Shown piece after piece: positions 19,875 through 62,699 of a stretch of DNA of 64,000 bases (the stretch's first letter is position 1; each line of letters opens with the position of its first letter). The DNA is from Utricularia gibba (taxonomy: Eukaryota > Streptophyta > Magnoliopsida > Lamiales > Lentibulariaceae): NCBI GenBank assembly GCA_002189035.1, contig NEEC01000002.1, positions 5,789,001-5,853,000 on the forward strand, read 5' to 3'. A program made the position numbers and the translations under genes. The notes beneath the pieces were generated by a model, which did no database searches, was not told the origin of the DNA, and saw nothing but the letters and a program-made list of their open reading frames with translations.

Positions 19875-22108
19875 CGCGCTATGGATGAATGAATAGCTCA
19901 AAGTTGATATCCTATTCAACTGCTGCTCTGCTTTCTTCTTGTGCGTTTAGCTTTTGATTTACCATGTACCAATGTCTTGATTCTTGCAGAAAGAATGACA
20001 GGGGCTCAATCACCACATTGGGAATGAAAAAGCTCTTCGCTTTACAAATGGATAAAAGACTCAAAGTGATCGCAGAGAGAATGAATTGCAATACACATAT
20101 CTATTCCCCTCCCAGTGTTCTCCATCCCATATTTCTGTGTACAAAACAAGAATTTTATTGGATCCCATCTGAACTTCGAGCATCAAATGGAACACTTGGT
20201 TTGTATCTGGAGAGGATATTCTCAGCCTAACTTTTTTAAAATAAATTTTAGAGTTGTGATAGGTTCAGAACGGTTTTCTCAAATTGTCCATTCATAAACT
20301 ACAGTTTACTATAAACTTTGGTTCTAGTTTCGAACCGAAATCAAATTTTTAAATTTTGAATCGAATTGAAATCACAATCGAATAATTATTTTGGAGATTA
20401 ATTTTCAGACATTTACATGAGCTTTTGTGGTTATCTGTAAAATGTGTTATTTTTTTAAGAGATTTTTCAGATTTTCATAATGATTGTAATGTTTATAAAC
20501 AATCTTAAAAATAATGAATATTTTCTAAGCATTCATATGAATCGTTAAATGTATCTAGAAAATGCATAATTCTTTAAAATATTATTTCAAGTTCTCAAAA
20601 CATCTATTAAATGTGCCTAGAACCATTTCAAACTGAAATCGTCGGTTCCATTGATTTTGCACTAATCGGAAACACGATTTTTCGATTTCAAATATCTCAA
20701 TCCGGCCTGAAATTTATTAGAGTTCTTGAACCATGCAATTCCGATTCGAATCGAGTACAACTCTAACAAATTTGTATGCCATCTACTGCAACATGTTAAA
20801 GTGACAAGAAATCCCAAATCTGCAACATACAACAAAAGCTAACCCTACAACCTAAGCCTCCCGGAAGCAGCTTGTACTGGAGCAATACAGCTATGAGAAT
20901 TTAGAAGTTACAACACACAAGGAGTCACCATGTTTTACTAAATCTTACTCATGAGATAATTCATGAATGGTTTTATGAATTTATTTTAGAAAATTCAATT
21001 TTGAGAAAATTTGATTCCATTTCGTTGTGAATTTGGGGATATTTGATTAATATTTTTTTTACATATTTATTTAATATTATATGTTTAATATAGGGATTTA
21101 ATGTTATAATATATATATTCAGATATCCTATTCACTAATAATGTAATTAAATGTATTATTTAATTTATTCTCTTTTTGAATTTATAACATAATCAACTAT
21201 ATTTTTTGAATAAATATATTAACAAAACTTATAAACAATATAATTGAAGAAAACCTAATTAAATTTGTAGTGTTACATTATTCGATACAAGGGTTTATAA
21301 CAAAATATTAATACAAGGGAAAACTATAAAAGCTGATAAAATTGAAAATGGAATATTTAAATGATCGGTTTCTAAATTATTATATGTCCAATATATTGAA
21401 AATTAATATTTATAATTTATGGATAAAAAAATAATTTTTGGTTTTATTTGTGAATATGGTTTTAAGGAGTGAATTTTAGATTTTGTAATATTGAAATGAA
21501 ATAATAATTAGGGTTGGCTTGATGAGTTCGAGAGCGTTATGACCTACACTAGTGTTATCTTCTTCTATGAAACCCACATTGAGTTATTGCTTACAATCTT
21601 TGCATTCGGCCTCCAGTACAATCGTTTTTATATTTTGAGATCGAGTTCTCTAATTCTATGCATTTGTTCCTATCTTTAAATGGTTGGAAGGTTTCAAACT
21701 TATGACCCACACTCAATTTATACGATATTTTCCGTTTTAGATATTCAAACTTCATGGTTTTACGTTCTATTTTTTTGAAGAAAATATTCTGTATAAGATT
21801 AAGAAGATCTTTGTATTTAAGTATGTCTCTTCTCCCGTTTATAATCAATATGGTGTATTGTCATTAGGCCCATAATCTTATATTCTACCATTATTAGACA
21901 CTCAGTATTTTAATTGAATGACCCTTGTCCCACCATTAACATGTGTTTAGATTTAATTCTAATACCAAATATAACCTCAAAACAAGTGATCATCATGTTA
22001 TTATAGAAAGTTATAATATTGCTCATATTAAATAATAGTAAGATGATTGTAGTTTAAGATACATGCACCAATTTGTATATCTACAAAAGTTACTATCTAT
22101 CAAGGCTC
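19875..22108. other. Intergenic AT-rich DNA at the left edge of the FLZ array
   Basis: About 20230-20770 is degenerate sequence rich in GAACCG/CGGTTC-like words, as in decayed plant DNA transposons. From about 20930 the sequence matches spacers inside the FLZ array (for example 28955-29460 and 33735-33880). Positions about 21500-21980 hold one decayed copy of the conserved block and TGTAACGA-family repeat that recur in each array unit. No gene is supported. Confidence 0.5.
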
Positions 22109-22423
22109 TCAAGTCAATCGTAGTTCTGACATCATATAATACTTGCGGCAATCACTACAACAGAATTTGTAATTCCTGCAAACCAAATATCTCCACTTAG
22201 TGCCATGTTTATTTTGTCTATAGAAAAAAAAAATGAAAGTTATCATTTTAGTACACTCTGCTTACTTGTATTTGAAGGCATCACAAGCATAGCGGATTGG
22301 CGTCTTGCACTCATGGCACAAATAACCAATTAGGTTTGCTTGTGTAGACCCAGACCCAGAATCTTTGGCTGAGGATTTGGAGTCTGATTTCTTTTCCTTG
22401 TTGCTTGTTTTGTTTTTCGACAT
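22109..22423 (-). CDS. Small FLZ (FCS-like zinc finger) protein, Ser/Lys type, array copy 1
   Basis: Exon 1 is 22266-22423 and exon 2 is 22109-22175 (both read on -), with GTAAGC...TTTGCAG splice sites. The protein is 74 residues: MSKNKTSNKEKKSDSKSSAK, a Gly/Ser stretch, then the FLZ zinc finger YLCHECKTPIRY...YKNYKFCCSDCRKYY. Cysteine pattern is C-x2-C, 18 residues, C-x3-C, as in the FLZ family; the FCS signature is FCC here. FLZ proteins bind SnRK1 kinase subunits, and this gene retains only the finger plus a short basic/Ser tail. A TATA-like CTATATAAT lies about 30 nt before the ATG. It is intact by reading frame and splice sites; expression is unknown. The short C-terminal tail after the finger is typical of the Ser/Lys type here. 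Confidence 0.72.
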
Positions 22424-23559
22424 CGTTGTGATTATGGAGTGTGCAATGATATTATATAGAGGTTAATATTATATATAAATATAAAAATGAAGTAATAACT
22501 ATTGTCTTTTTATTCTTTTTTAATTAATACAATGAAATATTAGAAATTAAATGTTGTTACAATAATTTGAATAATTAAAGTGTAAAAAATTAATAGGAAT
22601 TCATATAATAAGTTTTCTTCAACTATAAAATCATCGAAAATTAATTTAATAAAAACGAATAATATCATACAAATAAGTCAAGTATATGAATATTTGGTGT
22701 ACTACTACAAAGATTAACATAACATAAAAACGTTTAGAATATATGAACCACATTGTTATTTGTATTAAAATAGTTATATTTATAATAAAAAATTATTTTG
22801 AATGATAAGTATAAAACACAAATTTCTATTTAAATATTTAAAAGATTAGTAATTTTCAAAATTAAAAATTAAAATCAAAATTGGGTAACCGATTAATATT
22901 AAGTTATAATTGAGTTAGTCGATTTAGAAGGAACTTCTAAGAAGCTATTTGTGCAATAACAAATAATAATTATAATATTTAATTTAATTATTTTTTACTA
23001 AAACATATCAACATTTAACATTGAATACATTTAAAACTTTAATATTATAAATGATGATGTTAGTGTTGCTTCTATTTCGAGATTACATTTAAATTATTTC
23101 GAAAATTCAATATTCAAAAAATTTAATTCAATTTCGTTGTGAATTTTTGATTATTTGATTAATATATTTTACATATGTATTTAATTTTATATGTTAGAGA
23201 TAGAAACTTAATGTTATAATATTATATATATTTTTATATATCGCTAAATGAATTTAATGATAATATAATTAACTATATCATTTAATTTAATTTTAAAATT
23301 TATAATATTGTAATTAAATATAACATTGTGATTAAAGTCGTGTGTATGAATTATATATTTTTGAATAAAAATATTAACAAAACCTCATATATAATATAAT
23401 ATTATTTTATTCGATATAGAATTTTATAAATAAAAATAAAATTATATGTATAATATATAAATATTATAAAATAAAGCATTAATAATTGAGGGATTTCAAA
23501 ATCAATCTCATCAATGTCAATTTTGTAGGTATTTAGTATACCTCCAAATCTTCAAGTTA

Positions 23560-23840
23560 AGTGAATAATCATACTAATGAAAGTCATAGTGTTGCTCATA
23601 CTTAGTAATAAAAAAATAACTGTAGTTTTAAATATGCACACGGTAATTTGTGTATTTGTAAAAAGTACTATCTATCAACTCTATGAAGTATGTCATCCTC
23701 GCAGTATAAGATAAGACATATGATATGTACTAATATATAATCTTAGTACATATATACATATTCATTGAGTATCATGTTTACTTTATTCAAAAATAATAAT
23801 AATAAAGCATGAACGGTACCACTTTAATACCACTGATAAT
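23560..23840 (-). pseudogene. FLZ gene relic (3' flank and intron only)
   Basis: Positions 23565-23700 match the conserved 3' flank found after other copies (GAAAGTCATAGTGTTGCTCAT; AATTTGTGTATTTGTA; ACTATCTATCAA). About 23757-23830 resembles the FLZ intron (TATCATGTTTACTTTATTC ... AAAGCATGAA). No exon 1 remains. Confidence 0.5.
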
Positions 23841-24771
23841 ACATAAATTTCAATAGTTTTGGATGAAAAAAAGAATGGTGTTATCCGAAAAAGTTAGGAT
23901 TTTAAATAGAATTTTAATATTTTTGCGAGTATCAGCATGATTTTAACATTATATTTAAGATTGTGATTAAATCTTTGATTTAATATCAATCTTAATTTAA
24001 TCTTCTACATTAGAGTTATGCGTCGCATTTTTAGCAAATCAAATCCCAATAAGCCAATGGTGCATAGGATATGAGAAGAAAATTGGAGATAAAAGGAGAG
24101 AGAAAAATTGAAAAGGTGTGAAGCTGTTTTTATTAATGTTGTTGTTTGATTTCTTTTTGTTACTTTGAGACTTGAGATATGTTGATGATATTATTTTGTA
24201 AAATCAATTTTGTTGTTCTTTGAGGCCAAAATGAAGTAAGTATAATTATTGATTATTAGATCATACTAATTAGATTATTATACTAATTCTTTATGAAAAC
24301 AAAATAGTTCCAAAAGGAAGAATAGATGATATATTTATTTTAATATAAACCTAACTAGAAGTAGAGCAAAGGTTAGGGAGAATAAAGAATTTAGATAGAT
24401 TTAAACCTTCTATTTTATTTGATGAATGATTTTTAGTTTGGATGAAATACTTATATTGATGAACATATCACTTGTGAAAAGATTCAAAGTATCGTATTAT
24501 TTATTTTTATACAATAATTTGATTTGCTTATTTATCGATTTTGTCGTATCCTACAATTGAATTTTGTTAGTTCTAGATTAGACCTAATATTCAATTTTAA
24601 TGAAACAAAATGCATTAGTATTCACACACAAAAAATCTTGCTCTTCATGTTCTACACTCATTCCATTATGCTCATATTTGATTGATGTTTGACTGAGAAT
24701 GCATTTTATAAATTTATTTAATATAAAAATTAACAATTGAACATGATTGGTGAAATTTTTAGTTAATCGAA

Positions 24772-25163
24772 TTGGTGTCATTGCCAAGGAGGGGTGTTTA
24801 ATTGTTAAGTGTTATAATTGATGCATTTGCATTTCTTCTTGTATAGGTGATTTTGATTTCAATTCTCAAATTGAGAGGGTTGCTAGGAAGAACTAAAATA
24901 GAATAAGAGAAGCAGCCAAATTGAGGAGAATCCTAACTACAAACTAATTTAATTTGAGTATGGTAAAACAAGAGACAACTTTGAACAAACTATATGCATC
25001 AGATTACACATATAGGGAGTTGTGTTTAGATTTTTTTTATAATACAACTAATGAATTAAAACAAATCATGATAAATTTTATGTCAAAGTATTATGAAAAA
25101 GAGGTAGATAATCCATATGAACACTTGGACAATGTTAACAATTTATATATCCTTCAAAAATAG
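24772..25163 (+). mobile_element. Ty3/gypsy retrotransposon fragment: primer-binding site and gag start
   Basis: TTGGTGTCATTGCCAAGGA at 24772 resembles the TGGCGCCGTTGCCGGGGA primer-binding site of Athila/Tat-like gypsy elements. A gag-like reading follows: RELCLDFFYNTTNELKQIMI, then NPYEHLDNVNN, which fits the gypsy gag pattern FELKP...F.G...ED P..HL..F. The frame is interrupted upstream and no later domains (pol) are present. The sequence before it (about 23870-24771) resembles the LTR-like insertion at 54.2-55.35 kb. Confidence 0.55.
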
Positions 25164-25933
25164 TGAAATGATAGAGTATGTTATCTATTTGAAATCATTT
25201 CAATTCATAATAAAAGAGAACACAAAGATGTGATTTAAGTATGTTAGATGTCGAAAAATAATTGATTGATCTAAAACGAAAAAAAATGGTTTAATTAAAT
25301 ATTTTTCAGTTTTTAAGATAGAGGAAATTAAAAAAAAAAAAAATCAATGGTATCGAACAATTGAATGAAGAATAACTTCACAAATATTGATAACATTTGA
25401 ACCATCATTTAGGATCTTGTACGTACCACAAATTTTGGACTAATGTACTGGTAAAGTATTTTTTATGATGGATTACTTTGTATTAATTGTGCAATAGTTG
25501 ATTCAGGTGTTATAGATTTATTGAGAAAAAAAAACACTCACAGGAGGCTGTAGGTTTACTTGAACAATTGGCTGAACACTACAGTCATATTATCAAATTA
25601 TAAGATTCAAATATAAGAGTTTATAAAGTGTAGTGCAACCTAAAAACATCAAAAATTGATCTGACAAGAAATGTTAGTTGAAGAAGAGCATGTTAGTATC
25701 CAAACTTACTGATAGGTATCCAAACTTATTAGTATGCAAAATTGAGACATATTACTAATAAGTATTCAAACTTACATGAAGAAGAACATGTAAAAGTCAA
25801 TGGGATATTTAGAACTGCAAACAAGAAAGAAATACAATCCATACTTAAATACCTACAATTCATGATGGACAGACTATCCCAATTTTAGATAGAGCAACAA
25901 ATGATCACTCCTACAAGGAGCCACCATGTTTTC

Positions 25934-27759: not shown

Positions 27760-28451
27760 CACGAGGCTTGAAGTTCGGCTTCAGGAAACGGAAAATCGCC
27801 ATGGAAAATATAATTCACAGAAACATTGAGCCGCAATAATTGAAAGATCCGGGCCCAAGCCCAATATATTTTCCACACAATGATTTGAAAACCCTAATAA
27901 ACGGATAATTCTAAAAAAATGACATATAAAATAATCATTTTTTGCACATATTCTGACAAATGATCAATTTTCTAATTGATCCCAATAAATTTCAATTAAA
28001 TTAGATCATGTTTGATACAATTCGTTAAAATCATCGATTTTTTTTTTTGAATTTCAGACTCTCAATTTATTCTAATTAAATTATAATTGAATCACAGTTG
28101 AATTGTTATTGAATCGTGATTCATATTTTTTTTTCTATTTTAAAATGACTCAAGTTTAATTTAAACATTATGATGAATGATTAATGGTTGAAAAATGTTA
28201 AACTGCGATTGAAGTATAGTTTTTAATACATGGACTTTTATTAAACTGTTGATTTTCACAGAGTGAAGTAGGACTTTTTAGTCTAATGAGAAGAGAACAA
28301 TAGCTATCTAATCATTAACTTAACATGCATTTCCATTAGAATTGTGTCATTTATGTTTTTATATTAAAATTTTTATTTAATAATAATTTTTTAATATATC
28401 AATTTGACACCAGTTACTATAATCCATTAAAAATATATAATTACCCGTCAT

Positions 28452-29979: not shown

Positions 29980-30280
29980 AAATCAAAAAAAAAAAAAATA
30001 CTTGCAGCATTTACTATAACAAAATCTATAATTCATGCAAACCAAACACTTATATTTAATATCATATTTACTTTTTCTATAAAAAAAGAAAGCATGAAAA
30101 TGTATCATTTCAATGCACCCTACTTATATACGTGGCCATCATGATAAGAACGGATTTGCATTTTGCACCCATGGCACAAATCAACAATTGGGTTTGTTTG
30201 TGTAGACCCACACCTAGAAGATTCAACTTAGGATTTGTAACTGATTTCTTTTCTTTGTTGCTTGTTTTGTTATGTGACAT
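29980..30280 (-). pseudogene. FLZ pseudogene, Ser/Lys type
   Basis: Starts MSHNKTSNKEKKSV at 30280. A deletion in the Ser-rich linker shifts the frame relative to the finger, which is still readable as DLCHGCKMQIRSYHDGHVYK. The donor is weakened (AAGTAGGG) and the acceptor is GCAT instead of GCAG. The second half keeps only RFCYSKCCKY before an A/T run. Three independent lesions mark it as dead. Confidence 0.72.
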
Positions 30281-31299: not shown

Positions 31300-32012
31300 T
31301 AGGCCGCACAGAGTCACATAATTTTCAACAAACTACACATTTGTGTGTTCCCATCAACCAAAACCTGGGAAAGGGAGGAGCGAAACTAATGCTACTTGGA
31401 TTTGTTCAAAGACAACAATGTAATCGCACAAATTTTTAGAAAGCTCACTTGTCAAACTTTACTATCATTGGGTGTGGCGAGCCAGTTTTGGTATGCAATA
31501 TCTTATCTCTCTTCCTCCTCTACCTCTCCTCCATCTAGCAAAGGATTTATAAACTAACTCATATAACATAACCTTTCCCAACAAAAGAAACCGTAAAAAA
31601 GCAAAACTTGTCACTCTGGGTCGTTTCCTCTAGAATCAAAATCAAAACATCAGCATAGAGATTAAGCAATTTCAAAGCCAATTATCTTTGACTTAGCCTT
31701 TGCAGGGTTATCATGGGAAGAGCCAATAATCTCCGCCAGCTCAGGATCTCTGTCATAATCCTTTTCTCTAGCTTCACCCTGCCAAGAGAAATCTGCCTCA
31801 TCCTCCATTTCACCATCACTATCAACACCGGAACCGAGAATTTCCAACTGGGATTCAATATTGTCACTTCTCTTCACACATACTAAATGCCAATCCCGCC
31901 ATGGAGAACTTTTATTACAAACCGATGGATTGGAACTTAGAAACGGAACTTTCCATGATATCGCAGGAAATGAGGGGTAGAGTGGACGAAAACCGAGGTG
32001 GAGAGTTAGCAT
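31300..32012 (-). pseudogene. Truncated duplicate of the DUF3531 gene
   Basis: Exon 1 (ATG at 32012, MLTLHLGFRPLYPSFPAISW..., EAREKDYDRDPELAEIIGSS) is open. The donor after KAKSK has changed from GTAAGTGG to ATAATTGG (about 31685), and exon 2 (31445-31534) has a stop at codon 5 (MEER then TAG). Homology with the intact gene continues into intron 2 to about 31300 and then ends, so exons 3-7 are absent. Read through, exon 1 would give a 116-residue product ending IIGFEIA. It is a non-functional partial copy carried by a segmental duplication. Confidence 0.85.
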
Positions 32013-34150: not shown

Positions 34151-34156
34151 AATTAC

Positions 34157-35397: not shown

Positions 35398-37008
35398 TGT
35401 GGTGACTGTGTAGTATGTAATAATGTTCTATAAAGATTAGTATTATATATAGATATCAGAATATAGTGTTTTATTCTATATTTTATTCTTTTTTAATTAA
35501 TATAATAAAATATTAAAAATTTTATTTTGTGATAATAACTGAAAGTGTGAAAATTAACAGCATTCATATGATAAATTTTCTTTAACCAAAAATAAAATAA
35601 AAAATGAATAGTATTGTGCAAATAAAATGAAGGTAGGAATATTTGATGTACAATCACAAAGATTAACATAATGCAAAAAAGTTTAGAATATATGACATAC
35701 ATTGTTATTTATATTAAAAACAGTTATATATATAATAGCAATTGATATTTAAATGATAAATATAAAACATAAATTTTTATTAAAAATATTTAAATAATTA
35801 ATAATTTTCACAATATGAAATTAAAATCGAAATTGGTTAATCGATTAATATTAAGTAGATTTATTTTCATATAAATCAAGTGAGTTAGTCGATTTATTAA
35901 TATTAATTATTATAATTTATAAAAATGTGTATAATCGTAATTTCATTCTTAATTTTCATATAAATGCTATTATCTATTGATTTTTATAAAATTGAATTTA
36001 TTCTGAAATATTAATTCTCATTAAAATAGAATTTGATATATATTTCGAAGAAAAAAATAATTCTATTAGAATAAAATTGATTTTAAAGAATTCCAAACAT
36101 TCATTTAGTCGATTTTGAGCAAGTTTCTACAAAACTAATATTTAATTTGATTACCTTCAACAAAAATATATTAAAAATTAATATTGAAGACATTTAAATA
36201 ATTTAATATTATAAATGATGGTGTTAGTTTTGCTTATTTTTCGACATTGCATTCAAATTATTTCACAAAATTAAATATCCAGAAAATTTGATTCCATTTC
36301 GTTGTGAATTTCTGGATATTTGATTAATATTTTCTACATATGTATTTAAGTTATATTTTGAAGATAATAAATTACATATATATATTTTCATATATCCGTA
36401 AATGAATTCATTTATAATATAATTAAATATAGCATTTAATTTAATCCTTTCGAATTTATTATATTATCATTTAAAAAATATTTATGAATCTTATATTTTT
36501 TGAATAAAAATATTAACAAAACCTTATATATAATATAGTATTACATTTTTCGATATAAAATTTTATAACAAAATTAGAATATATTTATTAATATAACAAT
36601 TTTATAGAACATGATAAAAATTGAAAATCAAATAATCAAGTGATATAACAAAATTAGAATATACCTAAGTTATTATATATCCAATATATAATATATTGAT
36701 ATATTTTTTTTTGGTTTGTGAATATAGTTTGGACTAGTAAAGGTGGGAATGAGTGAATTTTAGATTTTCTAATGTTGGAATGAAATAGGAATTGAGATTG
36801 GTTTTTCACACCCAACTTTAGTTATTGCTTTGGATGAGATCTGTATTAATACAAATTGTATATGAAAAATTGAAAGTGAAATTATTATGCATATAATAAA
36901 TTCCAAATCAATAGTAATTCATTGATTCTAATTTTTTTAATCTGATCCATATTTATGTGTGCTTGCTCGATCTATCGAATTCTTAATTTCAATAATCATT
37001 GTATTAGT
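35398..37008. other. FLZ-array spacer
   Basis: AT-rich; matches 43900-44580 and 52250-53660 over most of its length, ending in the shared segment TAGTTTGGACTAGTAAAGG (about 36726). No gene seen. Confidence 0.55.
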
Positions 37009-37720: not shown

Positions 37721-37989
37721 CTATAGTTCCAGGGCCATATAATATGAACAACATTTACCAGTATAGAATCTTTTATCCCTGCAAACCAATACATTTCCAT
37801 TCAGTACCATGCTTTCTTTATCTAAACAAAGAACGCATGAAAGGTAGCATTTGTGTGCAGCCGACCTACTTGTATATGAAGGGACTTCGACAACTGATTT
37901 TTTCCTTGCATGTATGACATATATAAAGAAGAGAGTTTCTAGACCCAAATGCAACAACTTTGTGATGAGGTTCGTTTGTTCTCTGACAT
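37721..37989 (-). pseudogene. FLZ-derived copy with frameshift and altered finger
   Basis: Starts MSENKRTSSQ at 37989. A 17-nt deficit in the linker, compared with the 56.3-kb copy, puts the finger out of frame. The finger reads YICHTCKEKISCRSPFIYK then DKRFYTGKCCSYYMALEL, so the FCS cysteine is Tyr. The donor is GTAGGT. The tract that corresponds to the intron is open in one frame. Probably inactive, at least as a zinc finger. Confidence 0.65.
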
Positions 37990-38806
37990 GGTTGCAACCG
38001 TGTAGTTTGTAATGATGTGTTGATGGAGGTGAGTTCTATATATAAATATCATATTGAGTCATCTACCTTTCTATTTGTTTTTAATTAAAACACCTGAATC
38101 TTGGAAACTAGATTTTGTTACAAAGATTTAAGTAATTAAATTATGTATATTCATATGATACATCTTTTTGACAGAAAAAGGCGTAAAACTGTAAGAAAAT
38201 GGATTTGATAAAAATGAATTATATTGTGCAATGCGTATGTCAATATTTAGTGTAATACCACAAAGATTAACAAAATACAAAAAAAACTTTAAAATATAGG
38301 ATCTACATGTTATTTTTATTTAAAATAGATATACTTATAATAAAAGTGATATTTAAATAAAAATAATTTTTAATTTGATTACTTTTTCCAAAAAAAATAT
38401 TACCATTTAACATTATTGTATATGATTTATGTTTAGAGTGCCGACACTCTATGTGATATTACACATCATTTTGTTAACACATCATGGGAGTCCTTTACAT
38501 TCCAGATTGTGATCCCACTCATGTCAAAAGGCAATGTGACATATTGTCATTATGTCCATGACATTACATTATCTCCTTTTAAGCACTCAACATTTTTGCT
38601 ATGTGCTCTTGTCCCACCCATTAGTATGCGTTCACATTTGGCTATAATTCTAAATATATTCTCAAAACTACAAGTCAATCATCATACTACTATAGAAGTT
38701 TATAATATTGCTCATATCGAATAATAGTAAGATAATTATAGTTTAAGATACAACAAGTAATTTATGTATCTACATAAGGTTCTATGTATCAAGGCTATGA
38801 AATCAA

Positions 38807-40057: not shown

Positions 40058-41931
40058 AAATCAAAATTAGTTAATCGATTGATATTATGCATAATGGCAA
40101 ACAATTCAAACTAGAATCATAGTTTAAGTTTTTGTACCATTCTCAATTTAAAACGAAAACTGAACAAAAACAAGTCAATTTGTCAATTTTGGATCCAATG
40201 GAATCAATGGTTCGAATCCACAAACTATCATTTCAAACACCCACGTGATCCGTTGTGAGTATCTAAAAAAACTTAAAGAAATGATGTTGTGAATACATGA
40301 AACATTTTTCGCAGTGTATGCATACATACATAACAATCATTATAAGTACATAAAAAAAACTTCGAAAAATATTGTGTTTATCAGATATCCACAATGGTTC
40401 ATATGAATATATTGAAAATATAAATATTTTTTGGAATATTTTCATACACGCAAAAAAGAGATTATGGATGATTGAAAATAGAATTTTTATTTTTAAATTA
40501 ATTTTTAATAATTAAAACCATGGTTTGAATTAAACCATATGGTTCAATTATGATTTTAGTTCCGGTTTGGTTCAAGTTTAATGATTTCGATTTTAAACTG
40601 AAACCATAACTAAATTAAAAAAAAATTAATTTGATTATTTTCTACAAAAAGATATTGACTTTAACATTAAAGGCATTTAAAGAATTTAATATTTTAAATG
40701 ATGACGTTCGTGCCGATTCTCTTTCGACATTGCATTCAATTTCAAAAAATCCAACATCCGAGAAATTTGATTAGCAAACCGTATGTATTATTTACTATTA
40801 CATTATTCGAAATAGAATTTTATAAAAGAAATAAGAGAATTTTTATTAATATATGAATGTTAAAAAAACATATAATTAAAAATTGAATATTCAAATGATA
40901 TGCATCTATATTATTATATATCCAATATTTAATATGTGGATCAAAAATAAATTTTGGTTTTGTTTGTTAAAATAGTGTGGACATGTAGGCAATGAGGGAA
41001 ATGAAATAGGAATTGAGGCTATGCTGCAAAAGTTATTTTAAAATTGATTTTAATAAAAAAATTTTTGGATAAAATAAGAATTGACATATACTTAGAAGTA
41101 TTTTTTTAGAATAATTATTACATAATGAATTCATATTTGATTTGTAAAAAAATAAGATTTGATTTCAACAATTAAATGATATACTTCTAAATAATTATTG
41201 ATAATTATATTTTACAAATTTAAAACATATATTTATATTTCATTTATATTATAAAATTATTATATTATTTTTTAATTATAATTGATGTTTAATTTAATTT
41301 AAACATTTTTATATTAAAATTATAATTTTAAATTAAATTAATTAATTATTGATAATAGTATTAATTATAACTATTTATAAATAAATAGATATAACTATAA
41401 TTTTAATTTTAAGAACACTTTTCAAAAATCAATTTTTAGAAAGAAGTTATCATTTGATGTTTTTAATAGAATATAAATGATTTTTAAAAATTAAATTTAA
41501 TAATGTTCAAAATATGGAAAAATTCTATCAAAATAGTTTTGATTCTATGGATTTCAAAACATTGATTGAGAATGGTTTGTCATCCCCAAGTTGGATATTG
41601 CTCCCAATGAAGTCTTTGCATTAAACTCGTGTATCATTTTCAACGTTTTGATATTTTGAAAAGTTGTTTTCTGATTCTATATATTTTAACCTCTCTCTGA
41701 CTGATTTTGGAACCTTTCAAACTCAGCTTGATCAATCTCAATTTTGATGGGTATTTCACATAACTCAAGTTACAAGTTAAGGTGATCATCATACTAACAT
41801 AGGAATAAATAATAATGTTCTTATTGAATAATGGGCAAATAATTGTTGTATAATTGAGTACACGAAGTAATTTGTGTATATACAAAAGATGCTATCTATT
41901 AACGTTTTGAAATCAAACATAAAAAATGCAA

Positions 41932-42225
41932 TAATTCCAAGGCCATATAATATGAATAATATTTACTACTATGGAATCTTTGATTCTTGCAAACCAATAC
42001 ATCTATATTCAGTACCTTGTTTCCTTTATCTAGACAAAAAATGCATGAAATATAGCATTTGAGTCCAGCCCGCTAACTGGTATATGAAGGGACTTCAACC
42101 ACTGCTTTTCAATTGCATGTATGGAATATATAAAGAAGAGAGTTTCTAGAATTAGATGCAGTAGCTTTGAATAAAGATTTTGAATTTGATGTACTTTTTT
42201 TGCTGGTTGGCTTGTTCTCCGACAT
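41932..42225 (-). pseudogene. FLZ pseudogene
   Basis: Starts MSENKPTSKKSTSNSKS at 42225. The first zinc-ligand Cys is Phe (LYIFHTCN) and TGA follows two codons later. The acceptor is GCAAG and the second half is eroded (KDSIVVNIIH-like). Related to the 37.7- and 56.3-kb copies. Dead by several lesions. Confidence 0.75.
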
Positions 42226-43536: not shown

Positions 43537-43877
43537 TTATCCTTTCACAATAAAATAAGCCTTACAACATTTATTGCAGCAAAATCTATAACCTATTGCA
43601 GCAAAATCTATAACCCCTGCAAACCAAACAATTCTATTTAGTACCATGTTTACTTTGTTTATAAGAAAGAAAACATGAAAGGTATCATTTCATTGCACCC
43701 CACTTACTTGTATATGTGGATATCATCATAAGGGCGGATTTTCATCTTGCACCCATGGCACAAATCAACAATTGGCTTTGTTTGTTTAGACTCAGACCCA
43801 GACCCAGACCCAGAAGCTTCAGTTGAGGATTTGGAATCTGATTTTTTTTCCTTGTTGCTTGTTTTGTTCTGCGACAT
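43537..43877 (-). pseudogene. FLZ gene truncated by a perfect 22-bp tandem duplication
   Basis: Exon 1 (43708-43877) is intact: MSQNKTSNKEKKSDSKSSTE, a (GS) repeat, then KPIVDLCHGCKMKIRPYDDI and HIYK. In exon 2 the 22 bp at 43572-43593 are repeated exactly at 43594-43615. On the - strand this gives GYRFCCNRL and a stop at 43586-43588, so the last zinc Cys and the tail are lost. Without the repeat the reading would match the 51.9-kb copy through to a stop at 43537-43539. Splice sites are good. Probably a recent inactivation. Confidence 0.85.
43572..43615 (-). repeat. Perfect 2 x 22-bp tandem repeat in FLZ exon 2
   Basis: Two identical 22-bp units, 43572-43593 and 43594-43615, over the FCS-coding segment. 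The paralogue at 51.97-51.99 kb has a single unit. Confidence 0.95.
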
Positions 43878-45393: not shown

Positions 45394-47754
45394 GGTTGTG
45401 ATTATAGTATGTAATAATGTTCTATATAATTTAGTATTATATATAGATATCAGAATGGAGTACTTCCTTCGGTCTTTTTATTTCTTTATAGAATAAAATA
45501 ATGGAAATTGGATTTTGTTACAATAACTTGAATAATTATCGTGTGAAAAATTAATAGGCATTCATATGACAAATCTTCTCTAACAGAAAAAAATGTAAAA
45601 CTTTGAGAAAACGACTTTAATAAAAACGAATAGTAGCGGATAAATAAAATGAGTGTATGATGATATACAACCGTAAAGATTAACATAATACAAAAAAAGT
45701 TTACAATATATATGTACATTTATTAAAACAATTATATTTATAATAATAAGTTATATTTAAATGATAAATATAAAACAGAAATTAGTATTCAAAATTTTTA
45801 AATGATTAATGATTTTCAAAATTAGAAATTAAAATCAAAATTGGCTAATCGATTGATATTTATGCATAATTGTAGTCAATTCAAATTGTAATCTCAGTTT
45901 AAGTTTTTGTATGGTTCCCATTCTATAACCAAAACTGTACAAATTCAGATGGGTTTGTCATTTTTGGATGAGATGGAATCAATGGTTTGAAGTCGCAAAC
46001 TGTCATTTTAGACATCCAGATGATTCGTTGTGGGTGTCTACAAAAACTTAAAGAAACGCTGTTATGAATGCATGTAAAAAGTCAACATTTTTTGCAGCGT
46101 ATGTAGACATACAAAACAATCGTTATGGATACTTAAAAAAACTTTAAAAAATATTGTGTTTATCATACATTCACAATGATTCATAGGAATGTGTTGAAAA
46201 TATAAAATATTTTTTGGAGTGTTTCAAGACACCCATAAAAGATATTATGTATGCTTGAAAATAGAATTTTTATTTTTAAATTATTTTTTTATAATTAACA
46301 CCGTGGTTTTAATTAAACCATACTGTTCAATTCTGATTTTAGTTTCGATTTGGTTCAAGGTTCATAATTTCGATTTCAAACTGAAACCATAACATAATTT
46401 GACATTGAACCGCATTTTATAATTGAGTTAGTCAATTTATTAATATTGACATTTATAACTGGACACAACACTATTATTAAGTAACCAAGGGTCAAGTGAG
46501 TTAGTCAATTTAGAGGGAGATTCTACAAAACTCGTTATGCATTAAGAAAAAAAAATAAATTTAATTTGATTATTTTCTATACAAAGATATTGACATTTAA
46601 CATTAAAGTCATTTAAAGAATTTAATATTTTAAATGATGACGTTAATGTTGATTCTCTTTCGACATTATGTTCAAGTTATTTCAAAAAATTCAACATCTA
46701 GGAAATTTGATTCAATTTCGTTGTGAATTTTGGTCATTTGATTAATTTTCTCTACATACGTATTTAATTTTATATGTTAAAGATAGAGACTTGATGTTAT
46801 AATATCATATATATTTTCATATATTCTTAACTGAATTTAGAGATAATCTAATAAATATATTATGTAATTTAACATTTTAAGATTGATAACATTTTGTTTG
46901 TCAAAATAGTGTGAACAAGTAGTGGTGGCAATGAGTGAATTTTAGGTTTCCAATATTGAAATGAAATAAGAATTGAGGCTATGCATGTAAAAATTATTTC
47001 AAAATTGATTTTAAAAAAAATGAAAATTTTGAAAAAAATTTCAATTGAAATATTCTTAGAATTATTTTTTTTAGAACAATTATTACATAATGAATTCATA
47101 TTTGAATTGTAAAAAAAAAATAAGAATTGATTTCACCAATTAAATGACATTTATATATAATTATTATTAATTATATTTTATAAATTAAAAAATATATTTT
47201 ATATGTCATTTGTATTACAAAATTATTATATTATTTTTTAATTATAATTGATGTTATTAATTTAATTTAAATATATTTATATTAAGATTTTAATTTAAAA
47301 TTAAAGTAATTAATTATTTATAATAGTATTAATTATAACTATTTATAAATGAATAGATATAACTATAATTTTAATTTTAATTTTAATAACACTTTTCAAA
47401 AATCAATTTTTAGAAAGAAGTTATCATTTGATGTTTTTAATAGAATCCAAATTATTTTTAAACACTAATTTTCATTAATTAAATTTAATATATGGAAAAA
47501 TATGGAAAAATTCTATGAAAATAGAATTGATTTTATGGATTTCAAAACATTGATAGGGAATGGTTTGTCATGTTGAAGTTGGATGTTGCTTCCAATGAAG
47601 TTTTTGCATTGAACTCATGAATCCTTTTCAACACCAACATTTTAATATTTTGGGATGTTGTTTTCTGATTTTATACATGTTAACCTCTATGTGAATGATT
47701 GGGAGTTTTCAAACACAACCTCATCAATCTCAATTTTGATCGGTATTCCACATA

Positions 47755-52242: not shown

Positions 52243-53849
52243 CGTTGTGACTGTGTAGTGTGATGATATTCTATAGAAATTAGTGTTATATATAGATAAC
52301 ATAATAGAGTGTTCTCGTATATCTTTTTATTTTTTTTAATTAATACAATGAAATATTAGAAATTGAATTTTGTGACAATAACTTGAAGTGTGAAAAATTA
52401 ACAGTATTCATATGATAAATTTTCTTTAACCTAAAAAATAATAATAATAAATGAATAATATTGCATAAATAAAATGAATGTAAGAATATTTGATGTAAAA
52501 TTACAAAGATTAACATAATGCAAAAACTTTAGAATATATTACCCATATTGTTATTTATATTAAAAATAATTATATTTATAATAGCAAGTGATATTTAAAT
52601 TATAAATATAAAACATAAATTTGTATTTAAAATATTAAAATGATTAATGATTTGCACAATATGAAAGTAAAATCGAAATAGGTTAACCGATTAATATTAT
52701 GCAGAGAACAGTCAATTGAATTAGTTGATTTATTATTATTAATTCTTATAATTTATAAAAATTGTTATAATTATAATTTCATTCTTAATTTTCATATAAA
52801 GGCTACTGTCTATTGATTTTTATAAAATTGAATTTATTCTAAAAAATTAATTCTCATGAAAATAAAATTTGATATATATTTAAAGAAAAAATAATAATTC
52901 TATTAAAATAAAATTCATTTTAAAGACTTACAAACATTCATTTTGTCGATTTAGAGTGAGTTTCTAAAAAACTAATTATATGTTAACAAAAAAAATAATA
53001 TTTAATTTGCAAAAATATATTAACACTTAACATTGAAGACATTTAAATAATTTAATATTATAAATGATGGTGTTAGTGTTGCTTATTTTTCGACATTAAG
53101 TTAAAATTATTTTGCAAAATTAAATATCCATAAAAGTTGATTCAATTTCATTGTGAATTTCTGGATATTTCATTAATATGTTCTACATATGTACTGAACT
53201 TATATTTTAAAGATAGTAACTTGTATATATTTTTTCATATATCCGTAAGTGAATTCTTTAATAATATAATTAATTATAGCATTTAATTTAATCCTTTTGA
53301 ATTTATTACATTATCATTTAAAAAAGACTTAAGAATCAATTATATTTTTAGAATAAAATATTAAGAAAACGTTATATATAATATAATATTACATTTTTTG
53401 ATATAAAATTTTATATTAAAATTAGAATATATTTAATAATATAATAATTTTCTAGAACATGATAAAAATTGAAAATAAAATAATCAAGTGATATGTACCT
53501 AAATTATTATATATCCAATATATAATATATGGATAAAAAATAATTTTTTGTTTTGTTTGTGAATATAGTTTGGACTAGTAAAGGTGGTAATGAGTGAATT
53601 TTAGGTTTTTAATGTTGGAATGAAATAGGAATTGAGATTGGTTTTCCACACCCAACTTGATTTATTAAAACAAATAATCATATATCAAGAATTGAAAGTG
53701 AAATTATCATACATATAATAAATTCAATACCAATAGTAATCCATTAATTCTATTTTTTTCTAATATGATCTATATTTATTATATAATTAGAATTTATGTG
53801 TGTTTGTTCGATCCACTGAATCCTTAATTTCAAAAGTCATTGTATTGAT
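52243..53849. other. FLZ-array spacer
   Basis: AT-rich DNA colinear with 35398-37008. No gene. Confidence 0.55.
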
Positions 53850-55352: not shown

Positions 55353-55461
55353 CCTCATGCAAGATTAAGAAAATTTCTCTATTTAAGCATGTTTTCTATC
55401 ACGTCCATAATCAATATAGGATATCGTAACTATCACAAAGCACTAGGCCTTACAATTGGAC

Positions 55462-56059
55462 TAGAGCTGGGCACGGTTACGGGTTGACCCATGTATCCGG
55501 TGGGTCAACCTGATGACGGGTCCAACCCGTGACTCGTAACCGTCGAAAATAGGTACAAGACGGGTTGGTTGTAAACGGGTGTGAGTCGACCCGGTGGGTC
55601 ATCAAGAAGATGTCCAGGCACTGCCATAGCATTTTTTAGGTGCCTAGTGAATATTGAAGTGAGGCTCTTTCAGGCACCGCAATGACATGTTTACAATGCC
55701 CATAGAGTATTGAAGCCAGTGTCTTTCAGGCATCACAATGGCATGTTCGCAATGCCTGGCAAATATTGAAGACAGTGTCTTCCAGGCACCGCAATGGCAT
55801 GTTTGCGGTGCCTGGCGAATATTGAAGTCAGTATCTTCCAGGCACCGCAATGGCATATTTATGGTGCCTAGAGAATATTGAAGGGAGTGCTTTCCAAGTA
55901 TCGCAATGGCATGCTTGCAGTGTCTAGAGAATTTACTAACCCGTGTCAACCCGTGACTCGGGACGGGTAAGCCTGTCTAACCCGTCAACCCGTACCCGCC
56001 GAGTCAAACATTTCATTTTTTACCCGGTGGGTCCGACCCGTGACCCGTGCCCAGCTCTA
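55462..56059. mobile_element. hAT-like MITE
   Basis: Terminal inverted repeats TAGAGCTGGGCACGG ... CCGTGCCCAGCTCTA in a 598-bp element, flanked by the direct repeat CAATTGGAC (55453-55461 and 56060-56068). The TA at the ends makes 9 versus up to 13 bp ambiguous. Subterminal DNA is rich in ACGGGT/ACCCGT words, common in plant hAT-like non-autonomous elements. It interrupts the TGTAACGA repeat at the site equivalent to about 37478. The interior carries a 56-bp minisatellite. Confidence 0.78.
55615..55932. repeat. 56-bp minisatellite of hairpin units inside the MITE
   Basis: Unit starts at 55615, 55671, 55727, 55783, 55839 and 55895: an exact 56-bp period, five full units and a partial sixth. 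Each unit can fold AGGCACCGCAA against TTGCGGTGCCT (best at 55784-55813) and continues with GAATATTGAAG. An ORF through the array on the - strand is a repeat artefact. Confidence 0.9.
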
Positions 56060-56305
56060 CAATTGGACTATTGTATTCTTTTCTATATAATCATTTCAAC
56101 ATTTCAAGATTTACTTTTCTGATTCTATGCAATTGATGATCTCTCTGAATGATTGGGAACTTTCAATCCCAACCTGATCAATCTCAATATTGATGGATAT
56201 TCAACATAACCCCAAAGCTACAAGCTAGGGCAATTTGCATACTATATTTGTGTATGTACCAAAGGTGCTATTTATCAACGGTCTGAAAATCAATCATCGA
56301 ATATC

Positions 56306-56587
56306 CTATAGTTTCGGGGCCATATAATATGAACAATATTTACCAGTACATAATCTTTTATCCCTGCAAACCAACACGTCTCCATTCAGTATCATGCTTT
56401 CTTTATCTAAACAAAGAACACATGAAAGGTAGCATTTGTGTGCAGCCCACTTGTATATGAAGGGACTTTGACTACTGATTTTTCCCATGCATGCATGGCA
56501 TATATAAAGAAGAGGGTTTCTAGATCCAAACGCAACAGCTTTGTCTGAAGATTTGGAATCTGATGTGGTTGGTTTGTTCTCCAACAT
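56306..56587 (-). CDS. FLZ-derived gene whose former intron is open reading frame
   Basis: ATG at 56587; the frame is open through the place of the intron to TAG at 56306-56308 (93 residues). MLENKPTTSDSKSSDKAVAF, GSRNPLLYICHACMGKISSQ, SPFIYK; then, where others have AAGTAAGTGG, only AAGTGGG, so TAAG is missing. That removes both the donor core and the in-frame TAA. Read-through adds WAAHKCYLSCVLCLDKESMI, LNGDVLVCR, which ends in frame with exon 2 (DKRLCTGKYCSYYMAPKL). The second Cys pair is C-x4-C instead of C-x3-C. It may be a new Cys-rich protein or a decaying pseudogene; a weak GTGGGC donor could still be used. Confidence 0.5.
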   Translation of the reverse strand: MLENKPTTSDSKSSDKAVAFGSRNPLLYICHACMGKISSQSPFIYKWAAHKCYLSCVLCLDKESMILNGDVLVCRDKRLCTGKYCSYYMAPKL

Positions 56588-58649
56588 GATTGCCACCATG
56601 TAGTTTGTAATGATATCTTGATGGAGGTGAATTCTATATATAAATATCATAATGAGTCATCTACCATTTTATTTGTTTTTAATTAACATACCTTAATCTT
56701 GAAAACTAGATTTTGTTACAAAGATTTAAGTAAATAAATTATGCACATTCGTATGATACATCTTTTTAACTGAAAAAGACATAAAACCGTAAGAGAATGG
56801 ATTCAATCAATAAAAATGAATTATATTGTACAAATAAGACACATATGTCAATATTTGGTGTTAATACCACAAAGATTAATATAATACAAAAAACTTTAAA
56901 ATATAGGATCTACATGTTATTTGTATTAAAAAATAGATATACTTAAAATAAAAAGTGATATTTAAATAAAAATAATATTTAATTTGAATACTTTTTACAA
57001 AAAAATATTACTATTTAACATTATTCTATATAATTTATGTTTAGAGTGCTCACACCTCACGTGATATTACACATGATTTTTTTTTTACACATCATGGGAG
57101 TCCTTTACATTCAACATTGTGATCCCACTCATTATCAAAAGGCAACATGATTGGGAGATGTGGGTTAAATTCAATCATAGTTAAAATTAAGGATACAATA
57201 GATAGTACAAACATGTATATGAAATCATAGTTAAATGATTATATTCTAAAAATTTGATTTCAATTAATTAATAATAATACACGACATCTTATATATTTTA
57301 CTATACCAATCTAATTTTTTGACATTTTTTAACTTTAATGTATTTCCTTGTTTTCTTTTAATTGAGACGTAGGCCAATATGAATCAATATTTACTAATCA
57401 AGTCATGCTTTAAGACAAACATTTGGATATTATGCTCAAATTAAGATTCCGATAGATTGAGAAATCATGTGTAAAACTCATGTAAACAAAATATATCTAT
57501 CACACTCAAAAATTTTGGACTAAATTAATTGTTAATAATTCATAATTTATTATATAATTACCATATCACATTAATTCTGAGATTGTTGGTTCTAATAATA
57601 AATATGTGCTCTGCATGATCAACTCATACACTGTGTCACAGCTGATGACCATACAATTCATAACTAGGAGAAAGATATACCGTAAAATATTATTTCAAGA
57701 TAATATTTGTAATCCCTAACATTGAACACAATCTATATACTAGTTATATGAACATGAAATCAGGGTTTAACTCCTAAAAAATAATAAGTGATTTTAATTT
57801 TTTTAGATTAAAAATCATTCATATTTGCTAACAAAATTATTTTTGTAATAATTTTTTAATAGTACAATATTACACGTGTTTACATTTCTGTGCAGCAAAA
57901 TAATTCTACTGTATTGAAGTCCATCGTTCATGACTAACCCGGTCGGGCAGACCGGGTCACGGTTCCTAAACTAAAATTGGATTCAGGTATTTTCTACAAA
58001 AAAATATTTTTTAAATAACTTCCACTTTTTATTCATCTATTTTGCACATATTTTAAATAAGATGATTCTGATAATCAATTTGAATAACAGTTCTATATAT
58101 AATGATAGATAGTTGTGAGGAAGTTGTGTGATAAAATAAGACTGGCCACCTAATCGAATGAGCCCAAACATTGGATGTTCATATTCGTTCGTAATATTTT
58201 TTATCCAAAAATGTTGTTCAAACACAAGTATTCATGTTCGTTTACTAAGAGATATTATTCATGTTTGTTGAAAAGAATTTTGTTTTCAAATAATAAATAT
58301 TCAGTTAGCTAACTAACCCTAAAGATAAAAGTACAATTGGAGATGAGAATTCCTATCTGTTATTTTTTTCCTTGTAAATGTCATAGTTATCATTGACTTA
58401 ACATGTGACATAGTTATTTAACTGTTACATTATTTTTTTTATTTTTTAAGTAGTGAATAATAATTTTAATAGCATATATATCAAATTGACACCAATATGT
58501 AACGTTTAAGATGTCTGATAACACGCTTAATATTATCTTATAATAACACGCTTTAAACTAACACAATTTTCAATCCTTACATTTGAACCCTAGGAACACT
58601 CCATTATCAAATATATCAATTTACATGTCATTAATTATTATTTTTTTTT
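56588..58649. other. Array spacer and AT-rich intergenic DNA
   Basis: About 56620-57150 matches 38010-38540. About 57480-58640 includes a short GC-rich patch (57940-57965) in otherwise AT-rich sequence. No gene supported. Confidence 0.5.
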
Positions 58650-58735
58650 AGATTTGCCGACGTTTTTTTAAAGTGGGGTCATCGTTGCATGAGTGTCTCT
58701 CTGTATATATAGTTGAAGATTGGGGCAAATGTTCA
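58650..58735 (-). pseudogene. MDP-type FLZ gene-body deletion scar
   Basis: The last ~35 bp of exon 2 as in the 50.06-kb gene (GATTTGCCGACGTTTTTTTA, AAGTGGGGTCATC) is joined directly to its promoter (GCATGAGTGTCTCTCTGTAT, ATATAGTTGAAGATTGGGGC). Everything between was deleted. Confidence 0.85.
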
Positions 58736-59602
58736 TAATATATTATCGGATGCGGAATTATATAAAAAAAAAAGAAAAGAAAATATTATAGAAAATTTAA
58801 AATCAGATATTTAAATGGTCTGCATTTATATGCTCAATAATTTCCGAAAGGAATTTTTAAAAAATAATATTCATAATTCATGGATATGATTTTGTTTACA
58901 AATATAAGATATTAGAATGAACCACAAATACACAGCAAAATCCTACTGTCGAAAGGTTGAATCTGAATTTATTCTTACGAAAGAATATCAAAATTTGATT
59001 AAATTATATTTGAATTATGATGAAACGATGATTGAATCACTATTGAATCGTTATTTTTTTATTTTGATCGAAATATATTGTTCGAACATAAAGTATTCAC
59101 GTTCGTTCGTTAAGAATTTCGATTGTAACATATTATTCGAAAACGAATATTCATGTTAGTTCATTAACCATTTCTAATAGAATTTTGTTTTCAAACAACA
59201 TTAGATTATTCAGTTACCATTGAATTTTTAATTTGTTGAGAATTCAATTACCGAACAGTCAAAATAAGAAAAGGGCAATTGGAGACATTGATTTCTATCT
59301 AATTTTTTGCATTACAAATGTTATAATTATCATTCGGTAGTGTTTTTTATGGTAGCTTCAAATTAATAAAATTATTATCTGGTATTTAATTTTTTTCTAT
59401 TTTACAATTAGTAATATTATCATGCGAGGTCAAACGTATAACGTTTAACAAATATGATTATCATAAAATAACATAATTAATGTATAGCGTTTAACAAGCA
59501 TTATTTTCGTAAAATAACATCTTTAGAACTTATACACTTTTGAAACCCTCCAATTTGAAACTTAGTGACAAACCATATAATCCATTACAGTTTAGATGTC
59601 AT

Positions 59603-60041
59603 TTAATTATTTTTCTTATTTGTCCAATATGCCCACGTTCTTTTAAAATAGGAGTCATCCACCCGTTTACCCGATTCGCTCTGTGAACCCGCCGCCATCT
59701 TCCTCTCTATAGCTTCGTCGAGCGCCATCTCAGAACGGCGGCACTGCTCGGAGCAAAACCCACAGTCCCTGCAAATTGAAACCCAGCACATCACAAGGCG
59801 AGCCCGCACCGCCGTCATCGACTACAAAAGCGCAGAGAGTTTGAATTTCACAGACAGTCAATCCGTCAGTTACCTGTACATGAAGATATCCTTCTTCGGG
59901 AGAGAAGGCTCCTGCAGGAATGGCAGTACTTGAGAAAGTTGTCGCCTGTTTGCATTCCGCAGCGTTTGGAGACGGCGGCGATGATGAAAATGGTTCAACC
60001 TGAAGGGATGCCTACGCCCATCGGGAAACATATGGGTCCAT
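59603..60041 (-). pseudogene. MDP-type FLZ gene with broken exon 1
   Basis: Exon 2 (59603-59769 region, after TTTGCAG) is fine: DCGFCSEQCRRSEMALDEAI, ERKMAAGSQSESGKRVDDSY, FKRTWAYWTNKKNN. Exon 1 begins MDPYVSRWA and meets TAG; frameshifts follow. The finger start YCHSCRSLL is separated from KKDIFMYR by a missing base in TCCCG (TCCCCG in the 33.2-kb gene). Donor GTAACTGA and a TATATATACA box at 60081-60090 are kept. Exon 2 shares the KNKK tail of the MDY genes and the QSESGKRVDD segment of the MDP gene, so it is intermediate between the two. Confidence 0.75.
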
Positions 60042-60179
60042 TTCGCCGGTGTGCGGTGTCTGATAAGCTTCAGGAGTGTCTGTATATATAGCTGAAAACT
60101 GGGGAAAGTGCAGTGAAGACCGTCTTTACTTTGAACCAAAGCATGAATTCAGGGAAAGGGGATTCAGATAATGCAAAAG

Positions 60180-61130
60180 GCATTCATGGTTTGTGAAGAT
60201 GATGGTAGCATTGATTCTCTTTCGGCATTACACTCATGGCGTGTTTTGTTTTATTAATTTCATGAATTTTTTTTTAAATTTTTTAACATTTGAATCTTTA
60301 TTAGTTCGATAGTAAAACAAAAAATTTAGATTATGTGATTAACTTTACAAATTATTATATTTATTAAATTTCTATTTCAAAGATTAAATAATATATTAAT
60401 TAAAAAGATTATACTATTCAATTTTTATCTATTTATATTGTAATATTAATTATATAATAATTTAATATATTAAACTTTACAATATATATATATATATTAT
60501 TAAAATTTATAATAATTTTATATTATCACACAAAACAATTTTACAATCTTAAATTGATTATATTTACATAATCTGAATCATAGTTTCAAATTATAAAACA
60601 AGCCCTCAACTTTTTGAACAAAGAATTGAATATTGAAAAAATCTGTTGAATTTATGGACATTCGATTAATATTTTTTTATATACTAAAGAGACGATTTTG
60701 ATGTTCTAATATTGTATGCATTTTCTAGATATTCATGTATGAATTCATTAATAATTTAATTAAATATATTATTTAATTTCATCCTTTTAATTTTATAATA
60801 ATTTATAAATTATAATGATTTATTGTGATTTTAAAAGGTTATGGTATCACTTATATTTTTTTTAATAAAAATATTGTCTTAACATTATAAATAATATCAT
60901 TCAAGAAAACTCAATTTAAAATTTCAAATTTTATAATGTCACAGTCTAAGAAGATATTTATGAATGCAAGAATGTTACAGAAAATTGTAAAAATAAAAAA
61001 TTGTAATGATGAAAATCAAAATCAAATATTCGATTAATTTGTATCTGAATTATCGGATATTCAATAATTTCGACTACAGATATTAAATTTGCAAATATAC
61101 ATATTCAGCAGGTGGCAACAAATGAATTTT
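60180..61130. other. AT-rich spacer
   Basis: No coding signal; matches other array spacers only weakly, in line with a long separation. Confidence 0.45.
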
Positions 61131-61390
61131 AGGGTTTTGATGTTGGAATGAAATGGGGATTGGGAGTGGTTCGTGGTTGCTGCTTCTGGCATGATAAGTT
61201 CTAGAGCACCACGGCCTGCATTGGTGTCATCTTCTCCGAGGCGGCGACGCCCAACTTGGGTTTCTGCACGTAGTGAGGTCTCTGCATTGGATTCATGCTC
61301 CTTGTCCGATACGATCGTTACGATATTCAGCAGTGGATGCAGTCTCTTTAATTCTATGCATTTGTTCCTCTTGGAATGATTGTATAAATC
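61131..61390 (+). other. Conserved coding-like block, least decayed copy
   Basis: GC-richer than its surroundings, open on + as MVAASGMISSRAPRPALVSS, SPRRRRPTWVSARSEVSALD. This is a Ser/Arg-rich, transit-peptide-like reading. Decayed versions lie at the same relative place in other units (about 21500-21680, 34440-34660, 41560-41700, 47570-47720). I do not recognise a family. It could be a remnant of a gene that was carried along when the array expanded, or a 5' UTR/regulatory block. Confidence 0.35.
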
Positions 61391-61843
61391 AAACCCGAGA
61401 CAAGCGAGAGTCTTTTAGGGTCGTTTTTGCATCTCCTGCACGTATAGACTTTTGGATTTCGGGGCATTTCTGAAACTCAATTCGATTTAATAAATTAGAA
61501 TCCTACGTATACATGAGGCTAAATTCACTTTCAAATCTATCAAAATGAGAAGGTTGATATCTAATATTAACTAATTGAAATTTTCTTCAACTAGCAGTAT
61601 GAGATCACGTTTTTACTTTTCCAATATATGAATTTTCAACAGATTGTGTGCTTCCAAACTCAGCCTCATAAATTTCAATTTTAGTAGGTATTGAGTATAA
61701 GCCCAGAGCTACAACTTGGTATCATAATCATACACTCGCAACTTCAATATATTATAAGAAGTCATAGTATTGCTCATATCGAGCAATAGGAAGATAAATG
61801 TAGTTCAAAACACAAGCAATAAGTTGTATATCTATTTATCAGA

Positions 61844-62152
61844 TCATCTGGCGCGCTTTTGTTCATCCTGCGCAATCTGATTTCTGCGGCATCTGGTAGA
61901 ACAGTATCTGTTATCCCTGCAAACCAACACATCTCCATTTCGCACAATGTCTCCTTTATCCAAAGAAATAGAGCAGAAAGGCACCCAAACCACTTACTTG
62001 TACATGTAGACAGTTCCGCTTGGGTGCATTGCAGTCCCGCAGCCATGGCATAAATCGGCAGGCGGGTTTCTCTCTGTAGACCCCGACGCATCAGCGCTGG
62101 CCGAAGATTTGGAACCTGATGTCTTTTCCTTGCTGCTTTTTTTGTTCCACAT
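61844..62152 (-). CDS. Small FLZ zinc finger protein, Ser/Lys type, rightmost and most canonical
   Basis: Exon 1 is 61998-62152 and exon 2 is 61844-61916 (read on -); 75 residues. MWNKKSSKEKTSGSKSSASA, DASGSTERNPPAD, finger LCHGCGTAMHPSGTVYMYK / DNRYCSTRCRRNQIAQDEQK, RAR. C-x2-C, 18 residues, C-x3-C; VYMYK, RRNQI and QDEQK match the general FLZ consensus (IYMYRG..FCS.ECR..QI..DE) better than the other Ser/Lys copies. GC-richer than its paralogues. Splice sites are GTAAGTGG and TTTGCAG. TATATATACC at 62199-62206 is about 47 nt before the ATG. It may be nearest to the founder gene of the Ser/Lys subtype. Confidence 0.82.
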
Positions 62153-62699
62153 CTTTGTAATTGTGTAGTTTGTAGTAATATTTGATGGAAGCTAGCGGTA
62201 TATATACAAGCCACCATAAGGAAAAAAAAATTATGAGAATTGAGTTTGTTACAATAACTTAAGTGTTAATAATAAAGTTACATTTATATAAAAAAAATTT
62301 CCACCGAAAAAACTGTAAAACCGTAAGAAAATTAGGTAACTAAAAAATGAATAATATCGTTCAAATGAAATAAGAGTAACAATATTTGATTACGACCACA
62401 AGGATTATGATAATACAAAATATAGCATATTAGAATATATGACCTACATTGTTATTTGTAGGTAAAAAAAGTTATATTTATAATAATTATAAATAAATAT
62501 ATTTAAAATATGAATTTAATGTGGAAATTTTTAACCTATAATAGTATTGTATGGCTTGAAGCACGCTCATTCAATCTATAATATAAGGATATATGCATAC
62601 TTAGTTGAATAGCTGTCCTCATGAGAATGTTTTCTATGTTCCAATCATAGAGAATTGTAATTATTTGCCTTTATATTGATGATTGAATTTTCAATGACT

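Follow-up and report, generated by a model that had tools for sequence, protein, structure and literature searches.

The window, a 64,000-nucleotide stretch of the Utricularia gibba genome (C451:5789001-5853000), contains an array of short two-exon FLZ genes that extends from position ~20952 to ~62535 (~41 kb), with every copy on the minus strand. It comprises nine intact two-exon copies, together with six coding copies that are damaged and seven or more relics. A first-pass annotation had claimed nine complete copies, six damaged ones and at least three relics between 21500 and 62220; the nine could be rebuilt, the six were found as well, the relics proved more numerous, and the bounds had to be widened. 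FLZ proteins adjust SnRK1/TOR energy signalling and reportedly evolve under strong purifying selection; short FLZ copies that have multiplied and are kept open yet fast-changing would provide a natural test of a minimal FLZ acting on SnRK1. Gene finders that require long open reading frames may undercount FLZ genes.

Structure of the intact copies

The exons were joined by hand at recurring minus-strand splice sites, which gave nine full coding sequences of 71-107 aa with consensus GT..AG introns of 73-165 nt at a constant position, in agreement with the figures of the first-pass annotation. The intron lies inside the finger, after MYR/YK, both in the nine array copies (9/9) and elsewhere among the FLZ genes of this genome. 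Pfam zf-FLZ (PF04570, DUF581) was indeed the top family for all nine spliced products (best E 3.4e-14), confirming the FLZ identity that had been proposed. The proposed single strand, two exons and short products are supported too. The suggested profile search was less uniform when the curated zf-FLZ cut-off of 23.4 bits was applied: seven of the nine scored above it (24.1-52.5 bits), and B35 (20.4 bits) and B22 (17.4 bits) matched below it. Exon 1 of A50 was also retrieved by a six-frame family search of the whole genome by itself. A search for solved structures by sequence returned no FLZ structure, the best chains being ribosomal L24e (E 0.2).

The family signature is CX2CX17-19FCSX2C (PMC4047054). 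In class A, A50 (exons 50460-50285 and 50211-50064, minus strand; 107 aa, 52.5 bits) matches it exactly as CX2CX17FCSX2C, A33 (exons 33661-33513 and 33347-33194, minus strand; 100 aa, 37.1 bits) has the YCS form CX2CX17YCSX2C, and A28 (exons 28830-28688 and 28608-28452, minus strand; 99 aa, YCS, 28.7 bits) departs from it in that its cysteine pairs are just 11 residues apart. The class B copies, likewise on the minus strand, include four exact matches: B35 (exons 35397-35234 and 35137-35071; 76 aa, CX2CX19FCSX2C), B38 (exons 39125-38959 and 38864-38807; 74 aa, 24.1 bits), B45 (exons 45393-45236 and 45142-45085; 71 aa, 28.0 bits) and B51 (exons 52242-52085 and 51993-51933; 72 aa, 29.8 bits). 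The YCS form is found in B61 (exons 62152-61998 and 61916-61844; 75 aa, 37.7 bits), and B22 (exons 22423-22266 and 22175-22109; 74 aa) has FCC in place of FCS. Nine complete fingers had been claimed: eight copies carry FCS or YCS, and the claim needs correction for the FCC of B22 and for the 11-residue loop of A28.

Classes A and B

Class A proteins are acidic and have a complete finger with a C-terminal helix. They start with MD(Y/P)..T, and the finger lies mid-protein, followed by CRxxQxxLDE, so that in A28, A33 and A50 the helix is present at the fourth cysteine. Class B is recognized by a conserved K/S-rich N-terminal stretch (MSQNKTSSKEKKSNSKSS...). Five of the six intact class B copies (B22, B35, B38, B45 and B51) terminate shortly past the fourth cysteine and lack the helix signature RxxQIxxDE. 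B61, the most upstream copy of the array, is the sole intact B copy with the canonical CRxxQIxxDE helix (CRRNQIAQDE), and its retention there suggests that the absence of the helix from the other B copies is probably a derived state.

Duplication and decay of the array

Self-alignment of the window revealed duplicated blocks, the longest reaching 2.5 kb (81% identity) and others 1.9 kb (86%) and 1.0 kb (88%), and this segmental duplication excludes chance as the source of the array. With segmental self-similarity over 41 kb, the locus is a tandem FLZ cluster in the sense of at least two FLZ genes within 200 kb that arose by local duplication. A search of 20 kb beyond each end of the array found no related sequence and no continuation of the duplication. 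Along the strand the copies follow the order B61, A59, A58, B56, A53, B51, A50, A47, B45, B43, B42, B38, B37.9, A36, B35, A33, B30, A28, B23.5, A23, B22, A21. The two classes roughly alternate, as expected from an amplified B+A unit, from which we infer that a B+A block was amplified and later underwent partial deletions and duplications. B35 has a mosaic make-up, with a 5' flank closer to B51 and a 3' flank closer to B38/B45, which is consistent with unequal exchange.

The damaged copies, all on the minus strand, carry diverse lesions. A59 (59603..60041) has an in-frame stop and a frameshift in exon 1 and an intact exon 2. B30 (29985..30280) has a frameshift in exon 1 and has lost the acceptor AG, and in B43 (43537..43877) exon 1 is intact and a 22-bp tandem duplication shifts exon 2. 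Three further copies are divergent and B-like: B37.9 (37722..37990; NSLLYICHTC...RFYTGKCC), with a frameshifted N-terminus and the third cysteine gone, B42 (41900..42225; MSENKPTSKK...), with a stop in exon 1 and its cysteines gone, and B56 (56307..56587; MLENKPTTSDSK...), which has lost the last cysteine.

The relics, also on the minus strand, comprise promoter-only pieces of class A, one class A copy with a deleted coding sequence and one 3' piece of class B. Only the upstream part is left in A21 (20952..21520), which forms the left end of the array, and in A23 (23102..23322), A36 (36255..36804), A47 (46674..46892) and A53 (53104..53644). In A58 (58632..58735) the C-terminal tail is joined to the 5'UTR, the coding sequence being almost wholly deleted, and only the 3' part remains of B23.5 (23494..23687). 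The birth-and-death amplification that the first-pass annotation had envisaged is thus supported by the mixture of intact, broken and fragmentary copies together with the segmental duplication.

Evidence for and against constraint on the open copies

We estimated dN/dS by NG86 and ML. For class B, the ML omega was indistinguishable from 1 (lnL -892.28 with omega free vs -892.56 at omega = 1), and class A pairs also gave dN/dS near 1. NG86 values were 0.34-0.42 among B35/B38/B45 and 0.6-1.2 in pairs with B22, B51 or B61. Exon 1 had diverged by 14.6% vs 21-24% in the flanks, with 0.38 indel events per 100 bp vs 1.35-2.18, and the tree length was 0.63 for coding vs 0.98 for noncoding sequence (0.65 times). 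Class B exon 2 (22.3%) evolved as fast as the flanks.

This last rate, the omega near 1, the loss of FCS in B22 and of part of the loop in A28, and the broken or fragmentary state of at least half of the copies would fit a dying array, in which one or two copies still function (A50 and B61 being candidates) and all others, open or not, became pseudogenes recently and drift neutrally. We regard this as unlikely, since exon 1 is depleted in indels, the B35/B38/B45 pairs have low dN/dS, and five B copies all retain their frame, splice sites and four cysteines, contrary to the neutral expectation. In neutral simulations over the whole tree, the probability that at least five of seven B copies stay intact was 0 to ~7e-4 (in most settings none of the 400 to 3000 runs kept five of seven), and the joint probability for terminal branches alone was 3.5e-6 to 2.8e-3; these figures are rough, because a single tree was assumed despite recombining copies and the oldest relics were left out. 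In our reading, frame, splice sites and cysteines would be under real constraint and the other residues under a weak one, with copies dying often. It has been shown in part that at least several copies are preserved by selection acting on the open frame, the splice sites and the four cysteines.

Origin of the array

The six-frame family search of the genome assembly (~100 Mb in 516 contigs, which may be incomplete) detected roughly 16 FLZ loci outside the array, and by single-protein searches the array is restricted to one locus as far as the assembly shows. The best non-array match to A50 (8e-7) was a single-copy FLZ gene at C375 (1349.5 kb), whose spliced product is an FLZ protein of 96 aa (zf-FLZ, 59.7 bits). 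In the FLZ-domain tree, the nine intact array copies cluster together with C375 (SH-aLRT 99, UFBoot 98), but the branching order within this group is not resolved. The C375 gene shares with the array two exons, a short intron, the R-D-x-C knuckle and a minimal FLZ, and differs in being single-copy, lying outside the array and having a complete canonical finger. As this nearest relative is itself only 96 aa long and single-copy, the short size appears to be older than the array. Most likely, the ancestor of the array was already a short FLZ gene, with no need to assume that a long FLZ shrank within the array. A further FLZ tandem pair, of the canonical type, lies at C321:1572924 and 1573912, ~1 kb apart.

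Proposed explanation and predicted function

Overall, we consider it likely that one short, C375-like FLZ gene duplicated and gave rise to classes A and B, that a B+A block was then multiplied through repeated unequal crossing-over into the 41-kb one-strand array, and that the array products would be one-finger adaptors. Protein binding needs no more than the FLZ domain, which alone reaches about half strength (PMC4047054). For OsFLZ18, both binding to SnRK1A and its repression are on record (PMC8380221), 13/13 tested Brassica FLZs bound SnRK1 alpha1 (PMC11641214), and SnRK1 alpha binding with repression of its output is known for FLZ proteins (PMC8380221, PMC11641214, reviewed in PMC9664234). 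The A copies and B61 combine a complete finger with the helix, come close to a minimal FLZ domain and have no long disordered N-terminus. They would probably bind SnRK1 alpha, or else a different partner of FLZ proteins, and we predict that they act as competitors or dampeners rather than as scaffolds. Judged from sequence features, a link to SnRK1 is plausible for these copies but doubtful for the derived B copies, because the conserved C-terminal helix is missing there. The first-pass annotation had called FLZ proteins SnRK1-binding adaptors; this agrees with the family literature, but as most of class B lacks the helix signature, extending the label to every copy exceeds the evidence.

For the derived B copies, which combine the lack of the helix with the K/S-rich N-terminus, the partner may have diverged or the function may be fading. 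It would be a long shot to see in them a family of rapidly changing microproteins, reduced to the C2C2 core, that work as decoys or as rewired partners within the SnRK1-FLZ network and were amplified at this locus as a dosage or arms-race device. Class B, and perhaps class A, could instead have moved off SnRK1, with the C2C2 core and the basic Ser/Lys N-terminus serving a different task that evolves fast, such as one in reproduction or defence. Frames that stay open while residues shift fast, the loss of the helix signature from every intact B copy but B61 and the confinement to one locus, as far as the assembly shows, would agree with such neofunctionalised microproteins; omega is not above 1, however, and there is no direct sign of positive selection or of another partner, which makes this reading rather improbable. 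Manual splicing in AT-rich DNA could in principle produce spurious joins, but a duplicated assembly or a chance union of unrelated exons can be practically dismissed, given that copies differ by 12-35% and in their lesions, the window is free of N, Pfam E values go down to 3e-14, and the splice sites are identical in the nine copies and C375. We therefore retain the amplification of a short FLZ gene as our explanation.

Comparison with known FLZ clusters

The array had been presented as unusual, which holds only in part. It exceeds the FLZ clusters found in the open-access literature in size, density and degree of decay. Nevertheless, tandem FLZ clusters and FLZ proteins as short as 69 aa have already been published. 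Tandem duplicates are known from sorghum (13), Brachypodium (10), rice (8), Medicago (4) and Arabidopsis (FLZ17/18) (PMC4529292), and short proteins from Brassica nigra (BniFLZ19, 69 aa; PMC11641214) and maize (90 aa; PMC8037668).

The closest likeness is to BniFLZ19-BniFLZ25 of B. nigra, a tandem cluster on one chromosome whose genes have one intron and include the very short BniFLZ19; its seven genes spread over 108 kb, whereas the 41 kb of the U. gibba array hold nine intact copies and no fewer than nine broken ones, and neither two interleaved classes nor helix-less fingers are described for the B. nigra cluster (PMC11641214). The duplicates of sorghum, Brachypodium and rice are likewise lineage-specific tandem expansions, but these grass genes are reported to include block duplicates as well and to be under strong purifying selection (PMC4529292), whereas here omega is near 1 and decay is heavy. 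Arabidopsis FLZ17/FLZ18, tandem two-exon genes of identical structure, consist of two copies only; their transcription is induced by starvation, salt, ABA and KIN10 (PMC4529292, PMC4585328). We found no description of A/B alternation with helix-less fingers in the open-access literature. The novelty is therefore modest: the array is a large, fast-evolving example within the known phenomenon of tandem FLZ genes and not a new type of system.

Neighbouring genes and repeats

Both flanks are ordinary gene-dense plant DNA, with RMI1-like and phosphodiesterase ORFs (Pfam) on the left and, on the right, a legumin backed by matches to solved 11S globulins as well as ORFs that we take to be a WRKY protein and a WD-repeat protein. 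The array stretch itself had been described as looking empty by ORF length, but in addition to the FLZ copies a DUF3531 gene lies inside it (27768-25900, ~27.8-25.9 kb, minus strand; DUF3531, PF12049, E 5.6e-12, in 26787-26485). This gene has a putative plastid-targeted N-terminal exon at 27768-27432 (donor GTAAGT), with the next exon near 27282-27196. Its 5' part is duplicated at 31300-32012 (88% identical), where the splice donor is mutated. A transposon was considered for the repeat at 27.0-27.8 and 31.3-32.0 kb and rejected, as it is the 5' part of the DUF3531 gene and has only two copies in the genome; this low number indicates that the FLZ duplication took a fragment of the neighbouring gene along. 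An Rfam search of the window matched nothing. Within the array, a 56-bp tandem repeat (55641-55932; 5.2 copies, 79% matches) is crossed by a 110-aa open frame. To the left of the array, a dispersed repeat pair (81%) occupies 9108-9369 and 13210-13469 and recurs in part at 10060 and 13922.
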